Below, in pieces: positions 7,039-55,553 of a stretch of 64,000 bases of DNA (within the stretch, counting starts at the first letter, position 1; each line of letters starts with the position of its first letter). The DNA is from a virus: positions 274,436 to 338,435 of IMG/VR virus record IMGVR_UViG_3300032334_001259. One strand, written 5' to 3'. The notes beneath the pieces were generated by a model. It made no database searches. It was not told the origin of the DNA and saw only the letters and a program-made list of their open reading frames with translations. The translations under genes were made by a program, and so were the position numbers.

Positions 7039-7236
7039 GAGATCAATTCGGGTCTTAAGTACTTCTAATTCAAAGAGTTTTCCAAAGGCTTTACGGGCTT
7101 CCCGTTCACATTGGTCCTCTAACCTGTCAAAATGGTCTACTAACAGGTAGGCTTGATAGGAATAAAATACTAAAATAGCACATATTCCCATGCCCAATAA
7201 CCAAGCCAAAAATAGCGACAAATAATATAATATCAT
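7024..7236 (-). CDS. Small membrane protein
   Basis: 70 residues. One long N-terminal hydrophobic segment (about residues 2-27, YYLSLFLAWLLGMGICAILV) then a charged helical tail (EDQCEREARKAF). Its ATG overlaps the stop of the radical SAM gene (ATGA). A sigma70 promoter at 7243-7270 has its -10 box ending 6 nt before the ATG, so an almost leaderless message is possible. Function unknown. Confidence 0.6.
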   Translation of the reverse strand: MILYYLSLFLAWLLGMGICAILVFYSYQAYLLVDHFDRLEDQCEREARKAFGKLFELEVLKTRIDLLTNR

Positions 7237-9185: not shown

Positions 9186-9192
9186 GATAAAA

Positions 9193-9200
9193 TATTTATT
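9193..9200 (-). promoter_or_regulatory. T4-like late promoter box
   Basis: AATAAATA on the minus strand, 7 nt upstream of the ATG at 9185 of the radical SAM gene. It sits inside the last codons of the upstream gene. Confidence 0.5.
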
Positions 9201-9867
9201 GTCCTGTGATTTCACATAATTGTTTTATTGTAGTTATTTTACTATCTTGATTACATAAGTCAATATACTTTTGTGTATCACGACTCCATTCAGCACCTGT
9301 CCACCATTCAAAACCTGATAACTTTGCTTTGTAAATAGAACCTTTTTCATATCCACTACCTATATAGAGATAATTTAATCCTAATTGTGCTGCGCAGTTT
9401 ACTTCAAAGTTTAACATATCTAATCCAAACTTATTTTTTGGATGCGGTATGTAGGCATTAAATTGACTTTCTAATCCACCCGTATATTTTGCAAACTTTG
9501 TGAAACCAACTAATTCATCATTTACATAATACTCCATCCAACGATCACGTTCATTTGTTACAAATGGGTCATAGATTGGTGGATATTTTTTGCTTGTAAT
9601 ATAAGTTTGCCAGATTTGTTTGTATAATTCTATATTTGGATTATTTTCTATAAAAAATATACGGCAGTTTTGTTGTTGATAATTTAGTTTCCAATTCGCA
9701 ATACAAATACGTGTGCTACGTGACTGATACCATAGGTCATTATATAGCAACCAACCATTCGCTAATGCTTCACCTTCTTCATGTGGTTCACATTGCAGAT
9801 TTACATTATATAATTGTATACTGTTGTTTTCTTGTTGACCGTAATAGTGGTCATAAGTAATCTTCAT
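9196..9867 (-). CDS. GNAT protein like arginyl/leucyl-tRNA-protein transferase
   Basis: 223 residues starting MKITYDHYYGQQ. The C-terminal half follows the pattern of ATE/Bpt N-degron transferases: an incoming strand (WMEYYVNDELVGFTKF), the LGLNYLYIGSGYEKGS stretch, then IYKAKLSGFEWWTG and a late Trp. The N-terminal part (LANGWLLYNDLWYQSRSTRI) also recalls ATE_N but lacks its Cys cluster. Such enzymes move an amino acid from tRNA to a protein N-terminus, tagging it for ClpS/ClpAP; the window also encodes ClpS (54678-55004). Other GNAT roles are possible. Start at 9867 behind a TATAATTA box. Confidence 0.5.
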   Translation of the reverse strand: MKITYDHYYGQQENNSIQLYNVNLQCEPHEEGEALANGWLLYNDLWYQSRSTRICIANWKLNYQQQNCRIFFIENNPNIELYKQIWQTYITSKKYPPIYDPFVTNERDRWMEYYVNDELVGFTKFAKYTGGLESQFNAYIPHPKNKFGLDMLNFEVNCAAQLGLNYLYIGSGYEKGSIYKAKLSGFEWWTGAEWSRDTQKYIDLCNQDSKITTIKQLCEITGQ

Positions 9868-28005: not shown

Positions 28006-28989
28006 ATGCCCTTTTATGTATGGAACGGAACAGAGTTTACTAAAGATATCAAGTGGGTACCGAGTCAAGATGGTTCAGTGTTTCAAGCCGTTCCTCATGG
28101 TGACTATCAGAATATAGAGGAAGAAATTGTGAATCAGGAAACTATATTAAACTATTATGAAACACTGAATATAAGTGAACGTTCGGCGTTGATTGCAGCA
28201 CTACGCACAGATGAAGTGGCTATATTAGCACGTGAACGTGCTGAACTTATAGCACGTAATCTAGCACTTGGTGTACCTAATGGCAAGACTAGAGAAGAAT
28301 ATAGCACCAGTGCTTGGCAAATAAAACAAGACTATCCAGACAGCGAAGATGGTGTATACTGGATTCGTAATGATAACTTTAACAACGGCAACCCAGTACA
28401 AGTCTATTGCGATATGACTACATTAGGTGGTGGTTGGACATTGGTTGTTCAAAATACTTATTGTAATTGGACAGAAGAACAAGTGTTTAGTCGCAACGCT
28501 ACTACTTGTCCTACTCAACTAGCCACCTATGAAAATAGATCTAGTGAACAGAATTACAGTATTCTATCTTGGGCAGACAAGATCAAACGTGCAGAGTCAG
28601 GATTTGATTTTATGATTTGTGCTCGTGAACATGGATCAGCTGGTGGTGCATGGACTGCTAACGAATCATATTCATTTGTGCAAACTCTTGAAGAAGGTAG
28701 TTTGGGCGATCCAGATTTAGGAACAGCAGGTTGGCGTAAGAACATTACAGAATTGGCACGTTGGGGCTACAATGGTAACACATGGAACTATACGTCAGAA
28801 GCCATGGAAGCACGTATGCCTTGGGTAGGTATTGGTATTAACTATGGTTGGCTAACTACAGATGGATTCCGTGGCGGATGGTGGGGCACAATAATCAGCA
28901 ATCCCAATGGTGGGTTTGATCCAGCACCTTGGTTAAGCAATCTCCAAGACTGTGGAAGTCCAGGTGTCATCTGGTATTGGGTAAGGTAA
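28006..28989 (+). CDS. Tail-fibre-like protein with fibrinogen-like C-terminal domain
   Basis: 327 residues. The first 95 residues are a tail-protein-like stretch (FYVWNGTEFTKDIKWVPSQD). From residue 105 the pattern DGVYWIRN, VQVYCDMTTLGGGWTLV is the start of a fibrinogen-related (FReD) domain, followed by Cys/Trp-rich sequence to the C-terminus. Such domains bind sugars or acetylated groups in animals and some bacteria; in a phage it would be a receptor-binding tip. Start ATG 28006 after GGATAAGGAT. Confidence 0.75.
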   Translation: MPFYVWNGTEFTKDIKWVPSQDGSVFQAVPHGDYQNIEEEIVNQETILNYYETLNISERSALIAALRTDEVAILARERAELIARNLALGVPNGKTREEYSTSAWQIKQDYPDSEDGVYWIRNDNFNNGNPVQVYCDMTTLGGGWTLVVQNTYCNWTEEQVFSRNATTCPTQLATYENRSSEQNYSILSWADKIKRAESGFDFMICAREHGSAGGAWTANESYSFVQTLEEGSLGDPDLGTAGWRKNITELARWGYNGNTWNYTSEAMEARMPWVGIGINYGWLTTDGFRGGWWGTIISNPNGGFDPAPWLSNLQDCGSPGVIWYWVR

Positions 28990-29629: not shown

Positions 29630-31675
29630 TTACTTGGTGCTGGTTCTGTAAACAGTATCCCAACCAGCGCCTGGTGGGTTTGCAGCCATTTCTTCACAAC
29701 GTTCAATCCACATATCATAATATCCATCCATTTGCCCGTCAAATTGACCTTTAATTTTTTTACAAATTTCTATTGCACTTGTAAATCTTTGAGCACGATA
29801 GTCATCCATCATGTGTTTATGATTAGTTTTAGCAGCAAGATATGCAATTCTATCACTGCGTTGTTCTAATACTGTAAAGATATCAACACCTTCTTTTTTA
29901 CCTTTAACCGCAATGCAGTCTAATTCAAGTGTAAAGTAATCATCTTTTACATATTCATTTGTCTTTGGTCCAATAACCATAGCAACATGATATGGTTTAC
30001 TTTGCCCTTCTAAACGTGAAGCAAGATTAACGCCATCACCAAGACAAGTATAATCAAATCGCTGGCTACTACCCATGTTACCAACGACGACAGTAGCAGT
30101 GTTGATACCAAGTCCCATTCCAAAAGGTGGGACTCCCTCTTTGGCAACTTCTTCATTAAACGCATTTAAACTTCCTAACATTTGTAGTGCTGTCTTTACA
30201 GCGTTCTTGGCATGATCTGCATCATCAAGTGGTGCGTTCCAAAATGCCATTTGTGCATCACCGATATATTTGTCAAGTGTGCCTTCATTCTCTAATATCT
30301 TAGCAGTCATCGCTGTCATATAGCGGTTCATTATTTTGGTAAGACCTTGAACGTCACTACCGTAATGCTCAGAAATGCTAGTAAAACCCCTAACATCGGT
30401 AAATATAATTGATAACTCACGTGACTCTCCTCCCAATGCTAATAGTTCTGGATTCTTTTGAAGTTTTTCAACCATTGCAGGTGAAAGATAAGTTCCAAAT
30501 TGTTTCTTTATTTGTTGCTTTTGTAAGAACTCACTGACGAACTTAACACCGTAGGCATGCAAAGCGACCAAGATGATTCCAGCAACAGGAGCGGTTGCGT
30601 CCCATAACTGTAAAGCGTGATTAAACTGATAGAAAGAAAAAGCAATACTGCCGCCGACCAATACAATAACCGAACCAAGCCCAACATATACCCACCTCGT
30701 CAAGAATAATAATAACAGTCCACCAATTACGAGTGCAATAAGTTCTGCACCTTCTGCATAACTTGGACGTTCAATGTTAACCTTATTTGCCAACGTAGCA
30801 ATAATCTTTGCTTGTATATCTTGTGGATATACTGCACCAACAGCAGTAGGAACAGGGTTTGCAATACCAGCAGCACTAACACCAACAATAACAATTGCGC
30901 CATCAAACTTTTCTGGCATATTTGTAACGCTTACTTGTTTGTGTTGTTGACTTAAATCAATCCATACACGACCTAAACTATCAGTTGTGAATATATTTTT
31001 ACCAATACCAAGTTTATCAATTCCAAGTTCATTTAACTTAACTTTCATATTCTTTTCATTATAAAGAACACGAAGTGTTTCAAGACCGATTGTAGGATAA
31101 AGTTTACCACCACTGCCAACAAGCAGCGGAATACGACGATTAACACCATCTATTTCAGGAAATACGTTTGTTGTTCCAACACCAATTGCACTATTTTCTA
31201 AATCTGGAATGTTGGCAATAACACCAGGATAATTGTAAATTCTATCAATAAAATTACTGTTGACAATGGCGGCACCATTTGGGCGTGGTGTGTTCTTGCC
31301 TACGCTACTTGGAATATTACTTAAAATTACTGGATGATTTTTAAGAGTTTCAGCAAGTGCAGCGTCACCACCTTGGCGGTCTGCTTCTGGCATTAACACT
31401 GTCCAAACAACAATGCTTGCACCACGTGCATAAATGTCGTTAATTATATCCGCATATATCTGTCTATTAAACGGCCATTGTCCATACTTGTTAAGTGCGG
31501 CTTCATCAATATTAACTGTATAAATTGGGTTTTCAGTTTGTGTTTTATTTGTGATAAGTTGGTCAAAGTATTTTAACTTGACGCTTTCAACAAATGTAGG
31601 TGATGAAACTTTTATGGCAACTACGATTGCCAATGTTATGAGTGCAGTCCATGGGCTTAATAGAATTTTTTTCAT
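29630..31675 (-). CDS. CHASE2-domain adenylate/guanylate cyclase
   Basis: 681 residues from MKKILLSPWTALI. The N-terminal membrane helix, a periplasmic CHASE2 sensor (IYTVNIDEAALNKYGQWPFN, then DADLAET-like), further membrane helices near residues 310-380, and a class III cyclase: FTDVRGFTSISE (metal Asp), KYIGDAQMAFW (second Asp), GMGLGINTATVVVGNMGS, and CLGDGVNLASRLEG. It should make cAMP or cGMP in response to an external signal. Its own late box GGTAAATA lies 5 nt before the ATG (box 31681-31688). It sits next to FecR and curli genes, a pairing also seen in bacteria. Confidence 0.88.
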   Translation of the reverse strand: MKKILLSPWTALITLAIVVAIKVSSPTFVESVKLKYFDQLITNKTQTENPIYTVNIDEAALNKYGQWPFNRQIYADIINDIYARGASIVVWTVLMPEADRQGGDAALAETLKNHPVILSNIPSSVGKNTPRPNGAAIVNSNFIDRIYNYPGVIANIPDLENSAIGVGTTNVFPEIDGVNRRIPLLVGSGGKLYPTIGLETLRVLYNEKNMKVKLNELGIDKLGIGKNIFTTDSLGRVWIDLSQQHKQVSVTNMPEKFDGAIVIVGVSAAGIANPVPTAVGAVYPQDIQAKIIATLANKVNIERPSYAEGAELIALVIGGLLLLFLTRWVYVGLGSVIVLVGGSIAFSFYQFNHALQLWDATAPVAGIILVALHAYGVKFVSEFLQKQQIKKQFGTYLSPAMVEKLQKNPELLALGGESRELSIIFTDVRGFTSISEHYGSDVQGLTKIMNRYMTAMTAKILENEGTLDKYIGDAQMAFWNAPLDDADHAKNAVKTALQMLGSLNAFNEEVAKEGVPPFGMGLGINTATVVVGNMGSSQRFDYTCLGDGVNLASRLEGQSKPYHVAMVIGPKTNEYVKDDYFTLELDCIAVKGKKEGVDIFTVLEQRSDRIAYLAAKTNHKHMMDDYRAQRFTSAIEICKKIKGQFDGQMDGYYDMWIERCEEMAANPPGAGWDTVYRTSTK

Positions 31676-31680
31676 GGTAA

Positions 31681-31688
31681 TATTTACC
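31681..31688 (-). promoter_or_regulatory. T4-like late promoter box (cyclase)
   Basis: GGTAAATA on the minus strand, 5 nt (TTACC), then the cyclase ATG at 31675. It follows directly after the terminator at 31698-31721. Confidence 0.6.
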
Positions 31689-31691
31689 CAA

Positions 31692-31721
31692 GAAAAAACC
31701 CCGTAAATTTCTTTACGGGGT
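31692..31721 (-). terminator. Intrinsic terminator
   Basis: Stem ACCCCGTAAA / TTTACGGGGT (31698-31707 with 31712-31721), GAAA loop, and a T tract on the minus strand (TTTTTT). It ends the GHKL ATPase message (stop 31731). Confidence 0.8.
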
Positions 31722-31730
31722 CTTATTAAA

Positions 31731-33608
31731 TTAAAATTCAAAGACTTTTTCTAAATTATCAGAAATTAAAATACCATCTTCAATTTCTTTAACTTTTACT
31801 TTAAGTTGCTTTGTGCAGTCAGTTAAATCATAAATTAAACTATCCGCATGAGTAGTAAGTGAAACTGGGTGCAATGCCTTTTCAATTTCTTCTTGATCAT
31901 ACCCAATTCGTTTCTTTTTTGCCATTGAGTAAACCACCGCACGAGTAACTAACCATGCCATTTCATTAGATGCAATTTCTTTTGCTGCATCTTTTATTTT
32001 TTCAAATATTTCTTCTTCTCTGGTTTGATATTCTGCAACTAGTTCTTCTACTGCCTTATCTACAACTTCATACATGCAATTTACATAAATTGCCTGATCT
32101 TCAATATATTCTGCAGCACGATGTTCTAAACTTGTAGCACTTGCTTTTTCTAAATCATCTTCTGTTCTAATAAATTGAATTGCAGGCACTGTGGCGGCAA
32201 TTTGAAAATTACTGCCTGGCACATATGGAATTTGTTTTGTTTTAGGACTTTTTACAGCGTTGAAACTATTGCCAGCACCTTTTTTCTTACTAGGTGCCAA
32301 GAATCCTGTTTGCCCTTTATCTCTTGTTACGGTAACCATAAGTTCATCAAGTAATTGTTGTGCACGTTTAGTAATATCTTCACTACTGACATTTGATGGT
32401 GCATATTCTCTAATTTTTTCTTTAAACCATTCAGGCATATTTTCACGAATTTCACGTGCATATTCTAACATTTGAATTTCAGTTTTTTCAGCATTTGGTT
32501 TTAATATTTTTTGACGATACTGATCTGGTTGTACATTGCTTTCGTCTGGCAACTCAACAAAAATGCGAAAATATCTAGCACTGTATAAAACACCTAATGC
32601 ACCTGCAATCTTTTTCCATTTACTATCAGTTGCAACATCATAAATTTCATTTTTATAAACAAGACCACTAAAGGAAGCAACAGTAGCATAACCTAATGCA
32701 GTAGTAGTTGGTTTATCTTGGTTAGCATATCCTGAAAAACCACTTGGACCATCATAAACATACCAAATTTTTATACCACTTCCATTTTTGTCATTAACAA
32801 ATTCTTGAATAACCTTATCGGGTTTTGACATAGAAGTATGTGTAATATGTTCTAAAATTGTTAAGAATCGTATATTAAGATGTTTATGTTTTGAAAAACC
32901 AACTTCTAATCGCAAACTGACGGTATTTGGAATTCGGAAAAAACGACGATACATTTGATTGATTAACCATGCACTAGGTTTCTGTTCTTCACCATCATAG
33001 GGACGTTCAACCGTATTTTGATTAGGATTATTACCACAAAGCACAATTGCTGTCCAATCTTCATTGGTATCCCATGGTATTGTTGCAAGTCCAGTAATAT
33101 CCCAAACATCCTTATACCCAGTTGGACTTTCACCATCTGTTTCTACAAAATCATAACGGCAATAATTTGCTTGTCCTTTGCTATTAATTTCTTTTCGTAA
33201 AAGTGAAATGGAAACTTTCTTATTCTTACATGAAATCCAAATCATTCCTTCTTGATTTACACCCATTGCTGTAACTTTTGCGCCGATACCAAAATTTTGA
33301 TCAAGGCGTTGAATTTTGTTGAGTGATGATGATAAATTAGTAACTTCTCGCAATTCTTTGGCAGACATACCAGTGCCATTATTCCAGAAAGTAAGTTTTT
33401 TTATATTAAAACCAAAATCACCAAAAACATTTTCGTTAAATCCAAAAACAGAAGGATCAGTTTCTAGTATTTGAATTTTTGGTTCTTTTGCTGTGATAGA
33501 TGCTTCAATGGAATTTTGAATTAATTCTCGTATCATCATTTCACTTGGGGCTTGTTCAATTGTACGAGTAATAAGATAAGACGTATTTGTAACGTTTAAT
33601 GCAGTCAT
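31731..33608 (-). CDS. GHKL-type ATPase, unknown role
   Basis: 625 residues with the Bergerat fold motifs: N box RELIQNSIEA, G1 NNGTGMS, G2 NFGIGAKVTAM, near residues 24-115. No histidine-kinase phosphoacceptor or response regulator is seen, so it resembles Hsp90/MORC/MutL-type ATPases rather than a sensor kinase. The middle contains long beta-rich and helical regions; the C-terminus is acidic. Ribosome site AAGGAAA before ATG 33608. Role unknown; defence-related ATPases of this class exist in phages and bacteria. Confidence 0.72.
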   Translation of the reverse strand: MTALNVTNTSYLITRTIEQAPSEMMIRELIQNSIEASITAKEPKIQILETDPSVFGFNENVFGDFGFNIKKLTFWNNGTGMSAKELREVTNLSSSLNKIQRLDQNFGIGAKVTAMGVNQEGMIWISCKNKKVSISLLRKEINSKGQANYCRYDFVETDGESPTGYKDVWDITGLATIPWDTNEDWTAIVLCGNNPNQNTVERPYDGEEQKPSAWLINQMYRRFFRIPNTVSLRLEVGFSKHKHLNIRFLTILEHITHTSMSKPDKVIQEFVNDKNGSGIKIWYVYDGPSGFSGYANQDKPTTTALGYATVASFSGLVYKNEIYDVATDSKWKKIAGALGVLYSARYFRIFVELPDESNVQPDQYRQKILKPNAEKTEIQMLEYAREIRENMPEWFKEKIREYAPSNVSSEDITKRAQQLLDELMVTVTRDKGQTGFLAPSKKKGAGNSFNAVKSPKTKQIPYVPGSNFQIAATVPAIQFIRTEDDLEKASATSLEHRAAEYIEDQAIYVNCMYEVVDKAVEELVAEYQTREEEIFEKIKDAAKEIASNEMAWLVTRAVVYSMAKKKRIGYDQEEIEKALHPVSLTTHADSLIYDLTDCTKQLKVKVKEIEDGILISDNLEKVFEF

Positions 33609-33724
33609 AATGTTTTCCTTTTATAAGTTCTTAAAACTAACCAACTATGTGGTAACTATGTTTTAGGTAATAATACTTATTATACACACTCTGCATAAAA
33701 AAATAAAATTAATTTTTTTAAAAA

Positions 33725-33856
33725 AGTGCGGGTAGGATTTATACCTACAATTTGATGGTATTAACAAGCTACAGATTTAACAGACCCTTGCTTTCTAGTT
33801 CCTTTATTTCCATCATGCCGATACTCCAATACGTGTCCTGCCCACGCCGCCGCACT
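33725..33856 (-). ncRNA. tRNA-like structured RNA
   Basis: GC-richer stretch of about 130 nt in the leader of the ATPase operon. On the minus strand the ends pair (AGTGCGG with CCGCACT), GTAGG-TATAAAT-CCTAC forms a T-arm with a non-standard loop, GCGT/ACGT can make a D-type stem, and TGATGG/CCATCA closes an inner arm; an internal TCTGTTAAATCT segment resembles an Asn or Tyr anticodon loop with an extra base. It ends in T6. Best described as a degenerate or modified tRNA; tmRNA-like or novel RNA are alternatives. Confidence 0.4.
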
Positions 33857-33887
33857 TATCTCTTTATATATTATTGTATTAGTGCTG

Positions 33888-34889
33888 TCAATGTATTTGT
33901 TGTAAGTTTTTTAAAAAACTATTTGTGCATTTTTCCCAAGTATAATCTTTGCTTATTTTATGTACATTTTTGCGATTACAGTCTAGTGCATATTCAATGG
34001 CAATTTGTAAATTGTCATCCATAGCACCATTTACACCATTTATTATAATATCAGTTGGACCTGTAACTGGATATGCTGCAATTGGTGTTCCACATGCCAT
34101 TGCTTCTAACATTACCACACCAAAGGTATCAGTCTTACTTGGAAATACAAATACATCTGAGTTAGCATAATATTCAGCAAGTGCATCACCATGTTTATAA
34201 CCTGTAAAAATTACGTCGTTATATTTCTTTTTTAATTCTGCCAAGTATGGACCATCACCAACTAATATTTTTGTTCCGTCAGTTTTTAGACTGCAAAAAT
34301 CATCTAAACCTTTTTCTATGCTTGCACGACTTACGCAAAGTAATATAGGTTTAGTTGCTTGATTTGACTTACGTTTTTTGGGATTAAATATTTTAGTATC
34401 AACTCCACGATTCCATACAGCAAGACGTTCAAATCCACGTCCTTGTAATTCTTGTCGCATAGTTTCATTTGTAACTAAAACCCGTGTGCTAAACTTATGA
34501 AACCAACGAATAAACCAATAACCCCAATCTACGGGTATATTAAAATATTTGTTAAAGTATTCTGGAAATTTTGTATGATAACTTGTGTTATGTGGAATAC
34601 TGCGCTTATCTACTTTGCAATACCAACGTGCGGCAAATCCTAATGGACCCTCTGTAGCAATATGAATAGCATCTGGCTTAAACGATTCAATCATGGGACC
34701 AACACGCCAAATATTAAGTGTAAGTTTTATTTCTGGATAACCTGGCGCTGGCACAGTCTTAAATTGACTAGGTTCAATAACCTGAACTATATGTCCAAGT
34801 CGTTCTAACTCTGCAACAGTGTTTATAAGAGTTGTAACAACACCATTTACACTTGGTGCGTATGTATCAGTTACCAGTGAGATTCGCAT
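33888..34889 (-). CDS. GT4 glycosyltransferase, likely glycolipid (Agt-like)
   Basis: 333 residues, GT-B fold: N-terminal VTDTYAPSVNGVVTTL (glycine-rich lobe of lipid GTs), HIATEGPLGFAARWYC, and the donor-site FPSKTDTFGVVMLEAMACG with the E-x7-E motif. Its 23-nt overlap with the PlcP-like gene matches the bacterial plcP-agt operon, in which PlcP makes diacylglycerol from phospholipid and Agt adds glucose or glucuronate. So a glycolipid-forming enzyme is likely, although plain GT4 is all that sequence proves. Confidence 0.75.
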   Translation of the reverse strand: MRISLVTDTYAPSVNGVVTTLINTVAELERLGHIVQVIEPSQFKTVPAPGYPEIKLTLNIWRVGPMIESFKPDAIHIATEGPLGFAARWYCKVDKRSIPHNTSYHTKFPEYFNKYFNIPVDWGYWFIRWFHKFSTRVLVTNETMRQELQGRGFERLAVWNRGVDTKIFNPKKRKSNQATKPILLCVSRASIEKGLDDFCSLKTDGTKILVGDGPYLAELKKKYNDVIFTGYKHGDALAEYYANSDVFVFPSKTDTFGVVMLEAMACGTPIAAYPVTGPTDIIINGVNGAMDDNLQIAIEYALDCNRKNVHKISKDYTWEKCTNSFLKNLQQIH

Positions 34890-35616
34890 TTTTATATTTA
34901 ATTATAAACCAATGACCATTATAATCTTCAACTAATGCTGTGCAACTTTCAACCCAATCACCGCAATTCATATATTTTATATCACCTATTTCACGTATAT
35001 TTGCGTGATGTATATGTCCGCATATAATTCCATTTGCACCACGTGTTCTCGCAAAACTAGCAAGATTATCTTCAAAATCACCAATAAAGTTTACTGCCTT
35101 TTTAACTTTATATTTTGCCCAAGCACTTAAACTCCAATATGGTAACTTAAATAAATTTCTAATTCTTGCTATAACAACATTTAATGCAATTGTTAAATCA
35201 TATGCCCAACTACCAATATGACTTAACCATTTCATATTTTTAATAACAACATCAAACTGGTCTCCATGCATAACAATATATTTTTTACCATCTAAGCTGG
35301 CATGTGTAATATTATCCACGAGACAAATATTACCAAAGCTATACTCTCCAAATGTTCGTAAAAATTCATCGTGATTTCCTGGCAAATAATAGACTTGAAC
35401 GCCTTTTCTTGCCAAACGCATAAGTTTTTGGATTACATCATTATGATGTTGCGGCCAGTAAAAACTTTTAGCCATTGCCCAACCATCAATTATGTCACCA
35501 ACAAGATACAGACGTTCACACTCAAAAGTTTTAATAAATTCAAGCAAATCATTTGCTTGACTCATACGAGTGCCTAAATGCACATCGCTTATAAAGACAC
35601 TACGATAATAATTCAT
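34867..35616 (-). CDS. PlcP-like metallophosphoesterase
   Basis: 249 residues. Calcineurin-like motifs in order: FISDVHLGT, VGDIIDGW, LPGNHDEF, VMHGDQFD, CGHIHHAN, and a characteristic MNCGDWVESCTA near the end. The whole pattern matches PlcP, a manganese phospholipase C of phosphate-starved bacteria that is often mis-annotated as UDP-2,3-diacylglucosamine hydrolase (LpxH). LpxH is less likely because of the C-terminal GDWVESCTA. A late-type box (35623-35630) lies 6 nt before ATG 35616, then the GT4 gene follows. Confidence 0.78.
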   Translation of the reverse strand: MNYYRSVFISDVHLGTRMSQANDLLEFIKTFECERLYLVGDIIDGWAMAKSFYWPQHHNDVIQKLMRLARKGVQVYYLPGNHDEFLRTFGEYSFGNICLVDNITHASLDGKKYIVMHGDQFDVVIKNMKWLSHIGSWAYDLTIALNVVIARIRNLFKLPYWSLSAWAKYKVKKAVNFIGDFEDNLASFARTRGANGIICGHIHHANIREIGDIKYMNCGDWVESCTALVEDYNGHWFIIKYKNANLTGN

Positions 35617-35622
35617 ATAAAA

Positions 35623-35630
35623 TATTTACC
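35623..35630 (-). promoter_or_regulatory. Late-type box (PlcP-like gene)
   Basis: GGTAAATA on the minus strand, 6 nt before ATG 35616. Confidence 0.5.
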
Positions 35631-35660
35631 TGACCATTTATGTAAGTTTTATGATGCTTT

Positions 35661-36191
35661 TTAGTGTTTAGTATAAGAATAACCACTACAAGGAGGAGTT
35701 AAACATTGTATATTCATATTGCTACTATCTGGTGTATTAAGGTTATCTTGCACAACAGTTGCACCAATATCACTACCACTCAAATTAAGAACAAAACTTT
35801 TATTAGCATCGCCAGTTTGGGTAATACTTGCATTATTATTGTTGTTTTGTGTTGTAGCATCCAAATTAATGGCGGCAGTATGATTACCGCTACCATTTTG
35901 TAAAATAGTAAGTGTGTTGTTATTGTTATTTGAAGCATTTGTATTAGTATTGTAAGTCCCATCATAATTTTTTCCTACTGGTGGTGTTCCAATAAAAGCA
36001 AGATGATCTCCGCTTCCTTCTTGAACTATTGTATGATTATTACTATCGCCTTTGTTTAGTAGAATTGCTTCACTATTTCCACTTGAACTTTGGTCTAGGT
36101 AAAAAATATTTCCATTTCCAACTTGATCAATATAAACACTGCCTGCGTAACAAGGTGTGGTAATCATTAGTAAGAATAATAATTTTTTCAT
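35661..36191 (-). CDS. Curlin-repeat protein, CsgA/B-like (short)
   Basis: 176 residues with signal peptide MKKLLFLLMITTPCYAG. The mature part has curlin-like units: VYIDQVGNGN, LDQSSSGNS, NHTIVQEGSGDH, NTLTILQNGSGNH, SITQTGDANK, each with a Q/N-x-G-x-x-N spacing, but interrupted by Asn-rich linkers. C-terminal Cys pair (QCLTPPCSG) is unusual for curlins. It follows the FecR gene by a 4-nt overlap. Confidence 0.75.
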   Translation of the reverse strand: MKKLLFLLMITTPCYAGSVYIDQVGNGNIFYLDQSSSGNSEAILLNKGDSNNHTIVQEGSGDHLAFIGTPPVGKNYDGTYNTNTNASNNNNNTLTILQNGSGNHTAAINLDATTQNNNNNASITQTGDANKSFVLNLSGSDIGATVVQDNLNTPDSSNMNIQCLTPPCSGYSYTKH

Positions 36192-37306
36192 TGTGATTGT
36201 GCAATCCTTATCAAGCTACCGCCAGCATGTTGAACATTTTGAATAAGTGTAGTTCCATCTTGTGTTAATTGTATAGTTGTTGCACTATCCTTATCAACTC
36301 CAATTTGGCTAAAACTATTTGCGCCAACACGATATAGCACAACGGTTTGGTCTTGTTTATAATATAATAAACCAGCAGCTTTATTAGGTTTATAATTTGG
36401 CAACATTTGATTTTCACCACCCAACATACTTTCAAGTAGTGCAGCATTTAGCAAGTCAAGTTGATTTACCAATAATACAGAATCAAGTTGGTTAATATCA
36501 AGTTTGTTGAATCCCATAAGATAATTCATATCAAGTTCATCAAACTTTAGAAAATCTTTATCAAGAAAATTAATATCAAGTGCAGTTTTTTGTGTTGTTT
36601 CATTTTCTGCTGATTTCTTTGGTGGGGTTAAAATTAACATATTATTAATTTGTTCTTGATTTAACACAAGTATAACGGGTTTAGTTGGATTCTGTTCTTT
36701 TGCACTTGTAGTTGTTGCTTGAAATGGTTTATCAAGATGAACTGTACCCATATCAGTAGTGACATCAATCTTTCCAGTAACACAATCTTTTTCAATATTT
36801 TTGTAACCTACAGGACAGCTTGGCAACAGAACTACAAGACTGCGACCTAATTCATCAACTGTCATACTAAAGTCAGTTCCACGAACACCAATGACAGCAG
36901 TTGGTGTTTCAATTTTAACTTGCTGTGGATTTTCTTTTGCTATTTGTCCACTGGCATAGGTTGCAGTTCCAATAGCAACTTTAATACCAAGTTTGCTTGC
37001 ACTTGCATTATTTGGATCATATACAAAGTCATCAATTACAAGTTTACTTTGTTCAGTGATTTGCACTTTGGTATCATCTTCGAAAGTAATACCTACACGT
37101 GCACGAGCGGTGACAACGGCATCATTCATTTCAACGCCGCTGTTCACCGCACTTGGTATACTTTCTTTATCTCGTTGAATTTCAGTTGGTCCAGTTTGTT
37201 CAGTTACTTTACCAACAGCCGCCCAACAATCAGTTACTGCTGTTAACAGTAATACTGTTGTTAGAACCGTTGCTCTTGATATCAACTTTACTATCGATTG
37301 TGCCAC
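36188..37306 (-). CDS. FecR-domain protein with curlin-like tail
   Basis: 372 residues; N-terminal signal segment (VLTTVLLLTAVTDCWAA) and FecR domain with the hallmark PTAVIGVRGTDFSM near residue 135. It then has a Leu/Asp-rich part built of LD-x-N-x-LD units (residues 245-285) and a C-terminal tail (TTLIQNVQHAGGSLIRIA) like a curlin repeat. FecR proteins transmit or scaffold surface signals. Start uncertain: the frame begins 76 nt inside the upstream curlin gene, with ATG at 37306 or TTG at 37285. Paired with the CHASE2 cyclase nearby. Confidence 0.78.
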   Translation of the reverse strand: MAQSIVKLISRATVLTTVLLLTAVTDCWAAVGKVTEQTGPTEIQRDKESIPSAVNSGVEMNDAVVTARARVGITFEDDTKVQITEQSKLVIDDFVYDPNNASASKLGIKVAIGTATYASGQIAKENPQQVKIETPTAVIGVRGTDFSMTVDELGRSLVVLLPSCPVGYKNIEKDCVTGKIDVTTDMGTVHLDKPFQATTTSAKEQNPTKPVILVLNQEQINNMLILTPPKKSAENETTQKTALDINFLDKDFLKFDELDMNYLMGFNKLDINQLDSVLLVNQLDLLNAALLESMLGGENQMLPNYKPNKAAGLLYYKQDQTVVLYRVGANSFSQIGVDKDSATTIQLTQDGTTLIQNVQHAGGSLIRIAQSQ

Positions 37307-37916
37307 CTTGTGTCACTCCAACGTTATTTGAACTACCTGTTACATCAACTTTTGCATCAAAACCAGTAGCGCCAGCAGGACCACTTTGTTGAACGCTTAC
37401 TACATTACTGTCACCAGTTGCTTTAATATCAGCCTTTGCACCTAACATATTAGTAGTGCTACTGTTGATACTTGCATTATTATTGTCACCAGTTACAGCA
37501 ATACCCATAGTGCTTTTTGCACTTGCAGTCACACTTAATGTATTTCCACTACCAGTTGCGTTTGCAGTAATGCTTGTATCAGTACAAGTTGTTGTTGGTG
37601 CGGCACCGCAAGCAACATTCACAGTGTTGCTATCACCAGTTACAGTGCTGTTTAAACTACTACTTGCACCTTGCATATTAACATTATGTGTATTTTGGCT
37701 TCCTACTTGATCAATGCTTACAGTTTGCGTATTACCATTAAAAGTGGCACGAGTCGTGTCATTACCGACTTCATTACCACTACCTGTTTGAGTGATGCCG
37801 ATAGTGCTTCCACTACCAACTTGGTCGATATACACGTTATTGGTTGTACCTGCAAACACATTGCTTGCATACAGCAACCCAACAGCCATTAATGCTGTTC
37901 TTAATACCTTATTCAA
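37230..37916 (-). CDS. Curlin-repeat protein, CsgA/B-like (long)
   Basis: 228 residues, signal peptide ending SNVFAG. Repeats such as NVYIDQVGSGSTIGITQTGSG and VSIDQVGSQNTHNVNMQG match the curlin S/N-x-x-x-x-Q-x-G-x-x-N pattern; about seven more relaxed Asn/Ser/Thr-rich repeats follow. Start is TTG at 37916 behind GGAGTAGG, and the ribosome site lies in the palindrome ACTCCTAAAGGAGT. Its 3' end overlaps the FecR start by 76 nt in another frame. Confidence 0.8.
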   Translation of the reverse strand: MNKVLRTALMAVGLLYASNVFAGTTNNVYIDQVGSGSTIGITQTGSGNEVGNDTTRATFNGNTQTVSIDQVGSQNTHNVNMQGASSSLNSTVTGDSNTVNVACGAAPTTTCTDTSITANATGSGNTLSVTASAKSTMGIAVTGDNNNASINSSTTNMLGAKADIKATGDSNVVSVQQSGPAGATGFDAKVDVTGSSNNVGVTQGGTIDSKVDIKSNGSNNSITVNSSN

Positions 37917-37941
37917 ATGCCTACTCCTTTAGGAGTATTGC

Positions 37942-38751
37942 TTACTTTTTATCGGAAGCAAAACCCCATAAACCTTTATTTGCACCCTGTTTGATCATAT
38001 CCACAACGGCTGCTTCTGTTGCCAGACGCACAGCATATGTGGTGGGTTCGTTGACATTTGCACCTGCTTCTAATTGAATACTCATAGTTCCTTGGTCAAG
38101 AAATGTTAGTGCATTTCCATTTCCACCAGTGCTTAAAATAGTTTTTGTGGCACCAGCACTTACAAGGACTTCACCTGTATGAACACTGATTAATCGTAAA
38201 ACAACTGTGACTACATCAGTTCTATATTGTTGACTTATTCCAATACCTAACATGGCAGCTCCTGCACCACCACTTTGAACATTCGTATCGTAACCTACGA
38301 TACCACCTTCTACCATTACACCAGCAATAAGCATTGGTGATAATGGTTTTGCATCTTTACCTTCATAAGTTTCACGTTGATTACGAATAAGTTGACGTTC
38401 TTTAATAAGATCATCTAAACCCACACGTTCTACAACTTGAAACCATTTACCACGACCAGCATCTTGCAATGCTTTAATTAAAAATACTTCACCACCTTGT
38501 GTTACTGCACTGCTTAATACACTAAATTTGTCATTTTCTTTACGTTGTCCAGTCTTATCATTAAAACCATACATGGCAATAGTGATAGGTGGACCCGCTG
38601 GTGGTGGCATACTTGATAATTCATTATATGTACTTTTTTTAATTATTTGTGGCATGGGCGTAGCCTTTTCAGGAACCTTTGCCTCATATGGTATGGTTGT
38701 ATTACAACCAGCTAACATCATTGCCATAATTGAAAATACTATCTTACGCAT
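37942..38751 (-). CDS. csgG: CsgG, curli secretion pore lipoprotein
   Basis: 269 residues, the length of E. coli CsgG (277). Lipoprotein signal MRKIVFSIMAMMLAGC (lipobox LAGC, Cys-16). Family features: PITIAMYGFNDKTGQRK, GKWFQVVERVGLDDLIKERQ, AGVMVEGGIVGYDTN, QQYRTDVVTVVLRLISVHTGEV. The protein forms an outer-membrane nonamer that exports curlin subunits. Start overlaps the csgF stop as TAATG, so they are cotranslated. Confidence 0.92.
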   Translation of the reverse strand: MRKIVFSIMAMMLAGCNTTIPYEAKVPEKATPMPQIIKKSTYNELSSMPPPAGPPITIAMYGFNDKTGQRKENDKFSVLSSAVTQGGEVFLIKALQDAGRGKWFQVVERVGLDDLIKERQLIRNQRETYEGKDAKPLSPMLIAGVMVEGGIVGYDTNVQSGGAGAAMLGIGISQQYRTDVVTVVLRLISVHTGEVLVSAGATKTILSTGGNGNALTFLDQGTMSIQLEAGANVNEPTTYAVRLATEAAVVDMIKQGANKGLWGFASDKK

Positions 38752-39200
38752 TAGAACTTGAAACTCCCTATTGGAACTGTGACATCAGTCCGATTACCAG
38801 TAGCATCAATGACAGTAAGAGTAATAGTTTGGTTAACAGTATCTTTTAACCATGTTAAAGTGCTACCCTCAAACTGCATTGTACCAGTGGTTGCCCCATC
38901 AGCAAACATAGCATTGCTTAATTGCAAACTTAATTGTGCATAGATACGGCTTTCCAGATTGTTGAGAAACTTATTTAAATTTGTGTTATTTGCCTTTGAT
39001 TCAGCTGCTTCTTTTGCAGCTTTTTCTTCTGCTTCACGTGCTTTACGACGAGTGTATTCTTCATTTTCAATAGTCAGTGCATGACTACTGTAACCATCGC
39101 CGCTAAACTCTGGATTTTTAAAACCAAAAACCATTCCACTTGCAAAGACAGGTGTAGAAAACATCATTCCAGTGATGAAAAAAGGCACAATTTTACGCAT
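38751..39200 (-). CDS. csgF: CsgF, curli nucleation/anchoring factor
   Basis: 149 residues, signal peptide ending VFASG. The mature N-terminus VFGFKNPEFSGD matches CsgF (F-x-N-P-x-F), the segment that binds the CsgG pore, and the C-terminal part (GSTLTWLKDTVNQTITLTV, DVTVPIGSF) is the beta-rich CsgF tail. A middle stretch (EYTRRKAREAEEKAAKEAAESK) is a charged insertion not in E. coli CsgF. The ribosome site AGAGGATT lies in a hairpin (AATCCTC/GAGGATT) just before ATG 39200; a late box is at 39216-39223. Confidence 0.85.
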   Translation of the reverse strand: MRKIVPFFITGMMFSTPVFASGMVFGFKNPEFSGDGYSSHALTIENEEYTRRKAREAEEKAAKEAAESKANNTNLNKFLNNLESRIYAQLSLQLSNAMFADGATTGTMQFEGSTLTWLKDTVNQTITLTVIDATGNRTDVTVPIGSFKF

Positions 39201-39215
39201 ATTAATCCTCTTTTT

Positions 39216-39223
39216 TATTTATT
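39216..39223 (-). promoter_or_regulatory. Late-type box and ribosome-site hairpin (csgF)
   Basis: AATAAATA on the minus strand lies in the loop of a hairpin AATCCTC ... GAGGATT (about 39204-39235) whose 3' arm contains the csgF ribosome site. Transcription from a promoter further upstream would place the ribosome site in a stem; from this box, only the 3' arm would be transcribed and it would be free. Confidence 0.45.
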
Positions 39224-39243
39224 ATGAGGATTTTTTAATAATA

Positions 39244-39771
39244 TTAAGACAATTTCTTTATAGGTCTGCGAAATTCAACTATTGATGCTACAGGATATGC
39301 GCTTATGTTAACACTGTCGTCTTGGTTTCCACCAAGAAGTTGAACATACTTTATACCATTATCAAATGTCCAACCATAAAAGAAAGCGACATGGCGACCA
39401 CTTCCACCGCTACGGCGCATTAAGACAATATCGCCTGGTTGGGGGTCTGTAACTTTTATTCCGTAGTTATGATAACTTGCTGCACTTAAATTACCAGTGG
39501 AATCATAACCAGCACGTTCTAATACATAGTTTATAAAACCAGCACACCAAGGAATTTTTACAGGATCAATATCTAATATGGCTTGTAATTCTTTACGATT
39601 CTTTTTTGCATCATAACCATTATAATTCATGGCTATTTGCATTATATCACCACGTGTTTCACCAAATGTTAAACCATTGGAGTCCCAATTAAATGGAATC
39701 GTTAATTCAAATGCGCTTGCACTATTGAAAGGTATTAGACAAATACCAATTATTGCTAATAATCTTTTCAT
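39244..39771 (-). CDS. Secreted cysteine peptidase/amidase, TIGR02594/CHAP-like
   Basis: About 175 residues. Signal peptide (RLLAIIGICLIPFNSASA), then IPWCAGFINYVLERAG (catalytic Cys), QPGDIVLMRR and GRHVAFFYGW (His): the layout of NlpC/P60-CHAP family murein amidases. It may open the murein for the curli machine or release virions. The ATG at 39771 is preferred since a late box AATAAATA (39776-39783) lies 4 nt upstream; another ATG lies one codon before. Confidence 0.75.
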   Translation of the reverse strand: MKRLLAIIGICLIPFNSASAFELTIPFNWDSNGLTFGETRGDIMQIAMNYNGYDAKKNRKELQAILDIDPVKIPWCAGFINYVLERAGYDSTGNLSAASYHNYGIKVTDPQPGDIVLMRRSGGSGRHVAFFYGWTFDNGIKYVQLLGGNQDDSVNISAYPVASIVEFRRPIKKLS

Positions 39772-39775
39772 CATA

Positions 39776-39880: not shown

Positions 39881-39909
39881 AATTTAGCATTAAATTATTG
39901 ACCTGTCAA
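39881..39909 (-). promoter_or_regulatory. Sigma70-type promoter (tRNA-Gln)
   Basis: Minus strand TTGACA (39909-39904), 17-bp spacer, TAAATT (39886-39881), just before the tRNA-Gln 5' end. Confidence 0.6.
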
Positions 39910-39947: not shown

Positions 39948-40982
39948 ATGTCAAAGAACGTTCTTATTACTGGCGGCGCAGGATTTATTGCACACCATGT
40001 TATTGATCATATCCTTAAAACTACAGATTGGAATATTGTCAGTCTTGACCGCTTGGACTTTAGCGGTAACCTAAATCGTCTGCATGATATGATGCAAGAT
40101 CATGATCCACAAACACAAAAACGTGTAAAGGTAATATTTCATGATCTCAAAGCAGAAATTAACCCTCTTACTAAAACTCGTATCGGTCCTGTTGATATTA
40201 TTCTTCACTTGGCCGCTGGTTCTCACGTTGATCGTAGTATTGATTACCCTATGGAGTTCGTTCTTGATAATGTTGTTGGAACTTGTAATATTCTTGAATT
40301 TGCTCGTAAATGTGATAATTTAGAACGTTTTGTATATTTCTCAACTGATGAAGTATTTGGTCCTGCACCGCATGGCGTAAACTATGGTGAGTATGATCGC
40401 TATAACAGCGGTAATCCATATAGTGCTACCAAGGCTGGCGGTGAAGAATTAGCAGTATGTTATGAAAACACTTATGGTCTTCCAGTTTATGTGACACATA
40501 CCATGAACGTATTTGGTGAGCGTCAGCATCCAGAGAAGTTTATTCCTATGTGTATCCGCAAAGCTCGTGATGGTGAAACTATTACAGTTCATAGTGATAG
40601 AACTCGCACTATTCCTGGTTCACGTCACTATATTCATGCCAAGGATGTTGCCAGTGCACTTATGTTTATTCTTGGTCTTAAGGATTTTGTAATGCCACCA
40701 GAGTTTGGTGGTGCAAAATGTCCAAAGTTCAACATTGTAGGTAAACAGGAAATCAATAACCTAGAACTAGCACAGATTATTGCCGATAGTCAAGGCAAAC
40801 CCCTTAACTATGAAATGGTTGACTTCCATAGCAGCCGTCCTGGTCATGATCTTCGTTACGCACTTAGCGGTGAGTTTATGAAGAACCTTGGTTGGGAACC
40901 TACTATTGAACTTACAGAACGTATTAAACAAGTTGTAGATTGGACCCTTGCTCGTCCAGATTGGTTGAACTTAGATGTCTAA
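39948..40982 (+). CDS. NDP-sugar 4,6-dehydratase-like (SDR)
   Basis: 344 residues, extended SDR fold: GGAGFIAHH (NAD), LHLAAGSHVDRS, STDEVFG (catalytic Asp-Glu of dTDP-glucose 4,6-dehydratase), and YSATKAG (catalytic Tyr-Lys). It should make a 4-keto-6-deoxy sugar, the substrate for sugar methylation or amination. It is cotranslated with the next gene (8-nt overlap). Companions: methyltransferase (21410), glycosyltransferases nearby. Confidence 0.85.
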   Translation: MSKNVLITGGAGFIAHHVIDHILKTTDWNIVSLDRLDFSGNLNRLHDMMQDHDPQTQKRVKVIFHDLKAEINPLTKTRIGPVDIILHLAAGSHVDRSIDYPMEFVLDNVVGTCNILEFARKCDNLERFVYFSTDEVFGPAPHGVNYGEYDRYNSGNPYSATKAGGEELAVCYENTYGLPVYVTHTMNVFGERQHPEKFIPMCIRKARDGETITVHSDRTRTIPGSRHYIHAKDVASALMFILGLKDFVMPPEFGGAKCPKFNIVGKQEINNLELAQIIADSQGKPLNYEMVDFHSSRPGHDLRYALSGEFMKNLGWEPTIELTERIKQVVDWTLARPDWLNLDV

Positions 40983-48085: not shown

Positions 48086-48648
48086 GAGAAAATTTCAGGG
48101 TATAAACTAGCAATATGGAATTGTTGGTCAGAATTAATATAATTTCTTATATGAGGAATTATATTGTTTGCCATTATTTCGTGCCCACGAGGACTAAAGT
48201 GATTTAGTCTTTTATCATTGTTTTTGTAATCCCATGTAGGATCATCAGCTTTACTGCAAATCATTAATCCACCAGGTGCAAGAAACCACAGACCATAATC
48301 TTTATCTAAAAAACCATGTTCAAAACAAGGAATATTAATCATTTTAATATTTCTTATTTTACATTGTTCTTGCATATCTTTGATTAGTAATCGTTGAATA
48401 GTTTTAGCAAATTCAATATCAGCCAATCCTTCATTATACAATCTTGTAAATTCAGTATGGCATACTATTATAACATCTGGTTGTGGGACTAAAGTTTTAA
48501 TAAAATTATCATAAATTTTATACTGACTTTGTCCTCTAAATCCATAACAACTTATCATTTCAAGATTAAGTTCATTACATACTCGTTCTATCCAAGTGTT
48601 TTTGTAACTGTATGTAAAACTATCACCTGTAATTAATATACGCATCAA
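48082..48648 (-). CDS. SGNH-like protein (5 of 5)
   Basis: 188 residues starting MMRILITGDSFTYSYKNTW (block I Ser), CYGFRGQSQYKIYDNF (block II) and LNHFSPRGHEIMANN near the end (His). Its start overlaps the stop of the carbamoyltransferase gene by 4 nt, so the two are cotranslated, a pairing that suggests both modify the same sugar. Substrate unknown. Confidence 0.7.
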   Translation of the reverse strand: MMRILITGDSFTYSYKNTWIERVCNELNLEMISCYGFRGQSQYKIYDNFIKTLVPQPDVIIVCHTEFTRLYNEGLADIEFAKTIQRLLIKDMQEQCKIRNIKMINIPCFEHGFLDKDYGLWFLAPGGLMICSKADDPTWDYKNNDKRLNHFSPRGHEIMANNIIPHIRNYINSDQQFHIASLYPEIFS

Positions 48649-50108
48649 AATATCCGCACATTATTCAACTGACTAAATCTTTGGGCATCTTCCCATGTAT
48701 TCACCAATGGTTCACCCTTGATATTCAAGCTAGTGTTTAGCAACATTGGACAACGAGTTCTACTATACCATGCTTCCAATATTTTATACATAATACTTGG
48801 AGTAGGTTGGTCAATAGTTTGAACACGTGAAGTGCCATCAACATGACAGATTGCTGGAAAAGATTGTGGGTCTATACACGCATCTGCCCATTGCATATAA
48901 TCGTGATTAACTTGCATCTTACTATAAAAGTATTCACTAAACCAAGATTTCAATATGATTGGAGCGAATGGACGAAATGGCTCACGTTTCTTAATTTGGT
49001 TTACACGGTCTTTTACATCTGGTCCACGAGGATCAGCAATCAGCGAACGATTGCCTAGCGCACGTGGTCCAAACTCTGCACGACCATTGGCGATACCAAC
49101 AACTTGACCTGCTTCTAATGCATCAACTACATCACGCACATTTATTGTGCGATTAATATCGTGACCAAGAAACGCATGTTCTAAATGCACATGTTTTTTA
49201 GTATGATAGGTAACTGCGCCTAAACTTAAACCAGCATCACCAGGATTTGGTGGCACCCATATTTTACTAAATCCAGTAAATGTTTTTAATCGGCTATTTG
49301 CTACACAGTTGAGAGCGCAACCACCAACCAATACAAGATTATCACTGCCAATTACTTCACGAGTATAACGACAAATTGCCATTAGGTATTGTTCATATAA
49401 TGCTTGTGCAGAAGCGGCAATATCTTCTGGTTTCCAATTTTCATCTTTAGGTTTAGTCCACCAACGCATACCACGATGTAGGTTATGCTTAAACTCTATA
49501 TCAGGTGGTGACCACTGCCCAAAAAACTCGTTAAGCATTTCTTTAAGATGTCTTGGTTCACCACATGCTGCCATACCCATGACAATATATTCTTCTTCAT
49601 TAGGTTTAAACCCAAGATAATCTGTTACCGCACTATAAAAAAGTCCGATACTTTGCGGATAAACATTGTGCCAAACTCTGCTAATTTTATCACCATGTCC
49701 ACGACATATACTAGTGCACTCTAACTCACCAATCGCATCAATAACCACAACTGCTGCATCACTAAACCCACTACTATAATAACCCATAGCAGCATGTGCA
49801 CCATGATGTGGCGTTGTCACAACTGAAATATTGCCTAACCCATTGTTTTTTAAGTATTTTTTTAAGTTATAGTGTAGTGGACGCTGACCACTTATAAGGT
49901 TACGTATTGTGCGCTTCCATGGTTGTTCATACCATACTATTTTATCTGGTATACCATATTGTAACGCATCGTCAATCAATGATTCATTTAGATGTGGATC
50001 ATTCTTTACTCTGCTATACCGTTCAGCGTGACCAGCAAACAGAATGTTAGAGCCATCAACAAGAGCGATACTTGCATCGTGATTATTAGCATTGATTCCA
50101 AGAAACAT
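48645..50108 (-). CDS. Carbamoyltransferase (NodU/TobZ family)
   Basis: 487 residues. N-terminal LGINANNHDASIALVDG and HHGAHAAMGYYSSGF (ASKHA-like fold), then VGGCALNCVANSRL and PGDAGLSLGAV, and the C-terminal ANGRAEFGPRALGNRSL, REPFRPFAP. These enzymes move a carbamoyl group onto sugar or antibiotic hydroxyls. A sugar target is plausible given the dehydratase and SGNH partner. Confidence 0.88.
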   Translation of the reverse strand: MFLGINANNHDASIALVDGSNILFAGHAERYSRVKNDPHLNESLIDDALQYGIPDKIVWYEQPWKRTIRNLISGQRPLHYNLKKYLKNNGLGNISVVTTPHHGAHAAMGYYSSGFSDAAVVVIDAIGELECTSICRGHGDKISRVWHNVYPQSIGLFYSAVTDYLGFKPNEEEYIVMGMAACGEPRHLKEMLNEFFGQWSPPDIEFKHNLHRGMRWWTKPKDENWKPEDIAASAQALYEQYLMAICRYTREVIGSDNLVLVGGCALNCVANSRLKTFTGFSKIWVPPNPGDAGLSLGAVTYHTKKHVHLEHAFLGHDINRTINVRDVVDALEAGQVVGIANGRAEFGPRALGNRSLIADPRGPDVKDRVNQIKKREPFRPFAPIILKSWFSEYFYSKMQVNHDYMQWADACIDPQSFPAICHVDGTSRVQTIDQPTPSIMYKILEAWYSRTRCPMLLNTSLNIKGEPLVNTWEDAQRFSQLNNVRIF

Positions 50109-55058: not shown

Positions 55059-55493
55059 TTAAGATTTTGCAATAGCTATTTTCTTTGGCTTTTGTGACTC
55101 TGGAATATGAAATTCCAATTTAATCACAAGCAATCCATTCTGCATCTTGGCAGTTTTGACTTCCATATTGTCAGCCAAGTTAAATGTACGGACAAACTTG
55201 CGACTTGCAATACCACGGAAAATATAATCCGTAGGATTTTCATTCTTGATTTCACCAGTAATTACAAGTTGATTGTCCTTTAACGTGATGTCAATATCAT
55301 CATCGCTAAATCCACTTGCCGCAATTTCAATTTCGTAGTCAGTATCACTATTGCGGATAATGTTATATGGTGGATAACTTTGCTGAACTTGCACTGAATT
55401 TACACGAAGCATATCATCAAATAGGCGTTCAAAACCAATTGCAGTGCGATTAAAATGGTCAAAACCATCAAATACTTTAAGTAGATTACTCAT
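55059..55493 (-). CDS. Small heat-shock protein Hsp20
   Basis: 144 residues, alpha-crystallin core: YEIEIAASGFSDDDIDITLKD, NQLVITGEIK, RTFNLADNMEVK, NGLLVIKLEFHIPE. Typical of T4-like phages of aquatic hosts; a holdase for unfolded proteins. The usual I-x-I tail motif may be KIAIAKS. Early promoter at 55554-55581. Confidence 0.92.
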   Translation of the reverse strand: MSNLLKVFDGFDHFNRTAIGFERLFDDMLRVNSVQVQQSYPPYNIIRNSDTDYEIEIAASGFSDDDIDITLKDNQLVITGEIKNENPTDYIFRGIASRKFVRTFNLADNMEVKTAKMQNGLLVIKLEFHIPESQKPKKIAIAKS

Positions 55494-55553
55494 TTTGTTT
55501 CTCCTTCTAAAAGCGAGTAAGTTAGACGACCCAACTTTGGCATCGTCTAACCT

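Follow-up and report, generated by a model that had tools for sequence, protein, structure and literature searches.

The cassette and its genes

The window analyzed here is a 64,000-nucleotide stretch (bases 274436-338435) of the linear, 338,435-base virus record IMGVR_UViG_3300032334_001259 and has a G+C content of 35%. On its minus strand, at 29630-39774, it carries a cassette in which genes for type VIII (curli) secretion are combined with a FecR-domain protein, a predicted lipid-renovation pair and a CHASE2-class III adenylate cyclase. We read this cassette as a phage-borne curli secretion and envelope-remodelling module in which FecR and CHASE2 would inform a synthase of cyclic AMP (cAMP) about the condition of the envelope or of curlin, a reading that stands at about an even chance of being correct. 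The parts of the module are firmly recognizable in sequence; the circuit that would join them is what we infer. From right to left the cassette comprises the following elements, here preceded by a candidate promoter.

39881..39909, minus strand: best candidate for a sigma70-like promoter, upstream of tRNA-Gln and the cassette (TTGACA-17-TAAATT, TG before the second hexamer; consensus match only)
39244..39774, minus strand: exported CHAP/NlpC-P60 peptidoglycan hydrolase-like protein at the head of the cassette (PF05257, E 9.1e-7)
38751..39200, minus strand: CsgF (PF10614, E 8e-13)
37942..38751, minus strand: CsgG outer-membrane secretion pore lipoprotein (PF03783, E 4.6e-45)
37230..37916, minus strand: curlin-repeat protein 1, with signal peptide (PF07012, E 8.9e-7)
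36188..37306, minus strand: exported FecR-domain protein (PF04773, E 1.1e-9)
35661..36191, minus strand: curlin-repeat protein 2, with signal peptide (PF07012, E 3.8e-7)
34867..35616, minus strand: predicted PlcP-type metallophosphoesterase, the phospholipase C of lipid renovation (Pfam; alphaproteobacterial and SAR11 homologues)
33888..34889, minus strand: GT4 glycosyltransferase, predicted to be of the Agt (glycolipid synthase) type (Pfam; the homologue adjoins plcP in alphaproteobacteria)
33714..33862, minus strand: conserved, tRNA-like structured noncoding RNA element (sequence and structure comparison)
31731..33608, minus strand: GHKL-type ATPase (HATPase_c_3) without transmembrane segment (Pfam, E 6.2e-6)
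29630..31741, minus strand: CHASE2-class III adenylate cyclase (PF05226, E 3.9e-37; PF00211, Guanylate_cyc, E 2.2e-18)

Promoter-like sites in the cassette region did not in total exceed those in shuffled sequence. The presence of a CHASE2 cyclase with complete class III metal residues, on the same strand as FecR and beside a curli system, had been noted in an original prediction from the sequence and was confirmed by Pfam and a residue check. CsgF, CsgG and the two curlin-repeat proteins lie on either side of FecR (Pfam), and between the FecR/curlin genes and the cyclase are the metallophosphoesterase, the GT4 glycosyltransferase and the GHKL ATPase, none of which the prediction had described. 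The cassette shares CsgG, CsgF and curlin repeats with the csgBAC/csgDEFG operons of Escherichia coli but adds FecR and the cyclase, and Pfam found no CsgE, CsgD or CsgC among the cassette genes, the only part of the record searched for them.

The CHASE2 cyclase

The cyclase open reading frame (ORF) encodes 703 residues from a TTG start; the true start is more likely the ATG at 31675, where the homologues begin. Pfam and a structure model (predicted local distance difference test score, pLDDT, 85.7) agree on an N-terminal transmembrane helix, a periplasmic CHASE2 domain, three transmembrane helices and a cytosolic cyclase domain, which places PF05226 between the first helix and the following three, as in CHASE2 receptors. 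The modelled cyclase domain superimposes on Pseudomonas aeruginosa CyaB (3r5g) with a TM-score of 0.89. All catalytic residues of the class are present: metal-binding Asp449 and Asp495, adenine-binding Lys491, Thr565, transition-state Asn572 and Arg576, named here by the usual roles of such residues in class III enzymes. By sequence, Lys491 and Thr565 are the adenylate-type pair of bacterial enzymes, and the residue set is that of a class III adenylate cyclase.

D449, K491, D495 and R576 do not vary among 77 distinct viral homologues (L002-L083 and relatives). These proteins form two classes, one with Thr(Ser)/Asn (45 proteins, including the one studied here) and one with Asp/Ser (32 proteins, including that of phage Melnitz), in which Asp at the T565 position is coupled with Ser replacing the transition-state Asn. 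Because the catalytic residues are complete here and D449, K491, D495 and R576 are unchanged among the viral homologues, the phage cyclase is likely to make cAMP.

FecR, cyclase and curli genes are linked across viruses

The original prediction had named missing co-occurrence of CHASE2 and FecR in related phages as the result that would speak against it. Our survey found the opposite: of 52 viral loci in which 4 kb or more of sequence precede the cyclase, 48 contain FecR, in 45 cases upstream and on the same strand. Gene order was kept in 48 of the 50 viral loci holding both CsgF and the cyclase. In about ten loci without an intervening curlin gene, the FecR ORF shares 19 nt with that of the cyclase, which is consistent with co-translation.

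With tblastn, cyclase, FecR and CsgG were found together in Pelagibacter phage HTVC008M (KC465899) and in four Methylophilales Melnitz phages (Melnitz, MZ577098), with proteins 35-52% identical to those of the window and the order csgF-csgG-curlin-FecR-curlin-cyclase. A second-messenger enzyme had been called uncommon in a phage. This holds for isolates, where long cyclase matches are confined to six records from two lineages, but not for metagenomic phages, since IMG/VR contains at least 518 viral contigs with a relative of the cyclase. A type VIII secretion system (T8SS) module with FecR, an adenylate cyclase and a 'histidine kinase' has already been reported in pelagi-myo- and podophages and is expressed in metatranscriptomes (Wittmers et al. 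2022, PMC9599517); CHASE2 is unnamed there. The window likewise has csgF, csgG, curlin repeats, FecR and cyclase on a single strand and in this sequence, and it adds the CHAP, plcP, agt and GHKL ATPase genes and the RNA element.

The carrier also differs from those described. Outside the window the record was searched by family, and it holds a T4 gp23-type major capsid gene, which identifies it as a phage. The capsid protein has 68.6% identity with those of PA5oct, Paride and other Pseudomonas jumbo phages; by capsid this is therefore a PA5oct-like jumbo phage and not a carrier of the Kyanoviridae or HTVC023P type. Three contigs from metagenome-assembled genomes filed as Rhodobacteraceae and Pirellulales (L144, L145, L150) carry the module, either complete or as its FecR-curlin-cyclase part; since their G+C content of 36-37% is phage-like, they probably stem from phages and were put into the wrong bins in the genome database. 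A paper on aquatic 'moraphages' (PMC12619734) is unrelated to this module.

The FecR-CHASE2 pair has bacterial counterparts

In 115 alphaproteobacterial genomes, a FecR gene lies within 5 kb of at least 38 of 113 CHASE2 genes (upstream in 28), whereas random placement would give less than 1%. This bears out the earlier statement that FecR and CHASE2 often occur together in bacteria. Among proteins of truly bacterial origin, those most closely related to the phage cyclase come from Marinicaulis and other alphaproteobacteria; they are 27-30% identical, and most have FecR immediately upstream. Comparable operons, in which an exported FecR-domain protein adjoins a CHASE2 membrane enzyme, include the FecR-CHASE2 kinase operon tied to biofilm in Burkholderia (BiofilmReg, PMC5192318) and alphaproteobacterial cyclase loci (L146, L147, L149, L151). 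They differ from the phage cassette in that no curli genes are nearby in the sample. Sinorhizobium meliloti CyaD1 lacking CHASE2 produces cAMP constitutively (PMC5498481), and CHASE2 can therefore be restraining. Given how common the bacterial neighbourhood is, the viral module joins a known sensor pair to curli genes. No bacterial operon that already unites curli, FecR and cyclase genes was seen; in the 115 alphaproteobacteria, both strong CsgG genes lie away from the listed CHASE2 and FecR genes. In a Pelagibacteraceae single-cell genome (L151, 8745-11992) there is an adjacent, distant FecR-CHASE2 pair, with a cyclase 25% identical and a very lysine-rich FecR tail.

The viral FecR protein has its own tail

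The N-terminus of the phage FecR is a signal-peptide-like helix only, without the cytosolic anti-sigma domain and transmembrane helix, and a role as anti-sigma factor was rejected on that account. According to Foldseek, its first domain is folded like the periplasmic signalling domain in PupR-type anti-sigma regulators (PupR, 6ovk). Bacterial FecR proteins align only between about residues 26 and 205 of the phage sequence, and beyond about 210 there is no bacterial counterpart. In the structure model of this part, a flexible linker (about 220-310) leads to a six-stranded C-terminal domain (311-370). Gln370 in the last strand is invariant in 35 of 35 diverse sequences, and Q349, N359, G362 and I366 are conserved. 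A curlin-core motif, which was defined after inspecting the tails, occurs in 43 of 56 mutually related viral FecR sequences as compared to 3.7 (largest 10) in shuffles. These observations suggest that the virus-specific tail ends in a curlin-like strand.

A putative plcP-agt pair has joined curli modules repeatedly

The metallophosphoesterase and GT4 genes overlap by 23 nt. The former is 45-57% identical to alphaproteobacterial and SAR11 homologues, which are mostly single-copy, and in 23 of 24 alphaproteobacterial loci the GT4 homologue is immediately downstream. In marine bacteria including SAR11, plcP-agt has been shown experimentally to replace phospholipids with glycolipids when phosphate is short (Sebastian et al., PMC4796936). 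Judged by similarity and adjacency, the two phage genes are such a lipid-renovation pair, here phage-borne and within a curli module. No paper on a viral plcP was found in the open-licence literature.

A tree of 70 proteins requires four changes to account for the phage PlcPs that are linked to curli genes; well-supported branches force at least three of these changes, and one gain plus losses could mimic some of them. By this tree, plcP appears to have joined curli modules about four times. The gene orders differ among modules (curlin-PlcP-Agt-cyclase, FecR-PlcP-curlin-cyclase and cyclase-PlcP-Agt). Repeated joining suggests a task shared with the curli module.

A possible circuit and its alternatives

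In the sensor circuit that we favour, FecR would reside in the periplasm and pass the state of the envelope, or that of curlin in transit via its curlin-like terminal strand, to periplasmic CHASE2. CHASE2 would restrain the cyclase and let go upon the FecR signal. The cAMP would act on a receptor of the host, because the phage record is without one. PlcP would turn phospholipids of the host into diacylglycerol for Agt to glycosylate, so that the membrane is changed and phosphate is freed. The net effect would be an altered surface of the infected cell, serving superinfection exclusion, aggregation or phosphate supply for the 338-kb genome.

Several observations weigh against this proposal, most of all on the output side, which is the weak point of every explanation considered. 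The family search of the 338-kb record found no protein with the cyclic nucleotide-binding domain PF00027, and CRP-like palindromes were below chance (29 versus 49.6 in shuffles); a phage-encoded cAMP receptor and CRP-controlled phage genes were both rejected. Pho boxes were not enriched (7 versus 7.2 expected) and were rejected as a sign of phosphate control. Among 30 genomes of Pelagibacterales, hosts of the related cassette, only one had a cyclic nucleotide-binding domain, as a weak match. Hence, of the original prediction, the part that FecR and the cyclase belong together was supported, and the suggestion that the phage raises host cAMP to drive surface genes via CRP was not. On the input side, contact of FecR with CHASE2 or curlin is hypothetical. 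Curlin profiles scored weakly against the FecR tails (best E 0.0003, mostly 0.01-0.06) and Foldseek with the tail model gave no curlin match, so that the idea of a curlin-like tail draws on the sequence pattern only; with a motif defined post hoc, related sequences and weak profile scores it is suggestive and no proof. The transition-state Asn is Ser in 32 of the 77 viral cyclases, and therefore not all need equal activity. The repeated plcP insertions could instead reflect a shared hotspot for cargo genes, and no clumping was observed in Melnitz cultures (PMC9004378).

A more specific form of the circuit makes the viral FecR a sensor of curli export: its tail strand would be bound or displaced by curlin on its way to CsgG, and CHASE2 would read that state and switch cAMP synthesis while PlcP-Agt remodels the membrane. 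The phage would thereby encode a feedback circuit through which the host surface is rebuilt. We regard this version as distinctly unlikely.

A different use of the pore has been proposed for Melnitz by Buchholz et al. (PMC9004378), namely a role in lysis. Extended to FecR and the cyclase, it would make the cassette a lysis-timing device in which CsgGF is a repurposed gated pore whose opening is timed by the two proteins, with no fibre formed. An exported CHAP/NlpC hydrolase-like protein indeed heads the cassette, a CHAP homologue adjoins CsgF in two further loci (L033/L034), and CsgE and CsgD are missing from the cassette genes. Yet a bare pore would not need the two signal-peptide-bearing curlin-repeat proteins that most loci have kept, and the CHAP gene is found in only few modules. 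We consider this account possible, if unlikely. Much the same small probability attaches to a looser scheme in which the cyclase serves metabolism or counter-defence in general, by increasing or diverting the cAMP of the host, FecR is merely a structural partner of the fibre and the genes are co-travelling cargo without a single circuit. It agrees with the lack of a cAMP receptor and of CRP sites in the phage and with the distal position of the cyclase, which is sometimes separated from or inverted relative to the csg genes (L006, L031). It sits poorly with the near-universal linkage of FecR and cyclase in viral loci, which is independently common in bacteria, and with the overlap of their ORFs.

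The metallophosphoesterase and GT4 genes might alternatively be related to lipopolysaccharide, as an LpxH-like enzyme and a lipopolysaccharide glycosyltransferase. LpxH provides the nearest solved structures, the Mosig phage copy carries the annotation UDP-2,3-diacylglucosamine hydrolase and further sugar genes are nearby. The protein, however, misses both curated LpxH cut-offs by far (59 versus 134 and 51 versus 190 bits), while its 45-57% identity to mostly single-copy alphaproteobacterial proteins and the GT4 gene immediately downstream in 23 of 24 loci reproduce the published plcP-agt layout. We hold the lipopolysaccharide assignment to be improbable. Bacterial contamination or misassembly, which the bacterial-type genes and the linear record might have suggested, was rejected: a separate contig of 90 kb (L004) matches the cassette region at 100% identity over 22,109 bases, so the arrangement is no misassembly, the record has a capsid gene, and the order recurs in dozens of viral contigs and two isolated phage lineages.

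Other elements in and around the cassette

In L006 and L036, genes for homologues of the GHKL ATPase lie immediately before the cyclase gene. The tRNA-like RNA element, about 135 nt long, has a closing stem (A/G)GTGCGG/CCGCAC(C/T), a D-arm-like hairpin, an invariant T-arm-like hairpin and a variable middle. It gave no ARAGORN call and no Rfam match; its T-arm-like end was found in seven viral contigs at varied positions near plcP, csg or ATPase genes.

The product of a gene that converges on the cyclase gene (28006-28989, plus strand) has a fibrinogen-C-like domain (PF00147, E 2e-5) and is a possible adhesin. A dTDP-glucose 4,6-dehydratase-like protein (39948-40982, plus strand) and a Nol-like carbamoyltransferase (48645-50108, minus strand) are encoded near the cassette and would fit work on surface sugars. 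Further away are a radical SAM protein with a B12-binding domain (7233-9215, minus strand) and a match to the RNA thermometer ROSE_3 (55488-55549, minus strand; 43.5 versus a gathering score of 43) upstream of an ORF at 55059-55493; such heat-shock type control would be odd for a phage.

Significance

The curli-FecR-cyclase module was already known from pelagiphages, and the FecR-CHASE2 pair is a common alphaproteobacterial neighbourhood. New are a PA5oct-like genome as carrier of the module, plcP-agt within it, the viral FecR tail with its invariant Gln and the 135-nt tRNA-like RNA. For the function of the viral curli module, capture of siblings, a block to superinfection, import and lysis timing have been proposed. 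The near-constant FecR and CHASE2 cyclase, the reach into PA5oct-like jumbo phages and the repeated lipid-renovation genes now lead to concrete tests. The added plcP-agt genes suggest that the virus rebuilds the outer surface of its host during infection. If true, a phage that degrades host phospholipids for phosphate or membrane change would represent a new kind of auxiliary metabolism.

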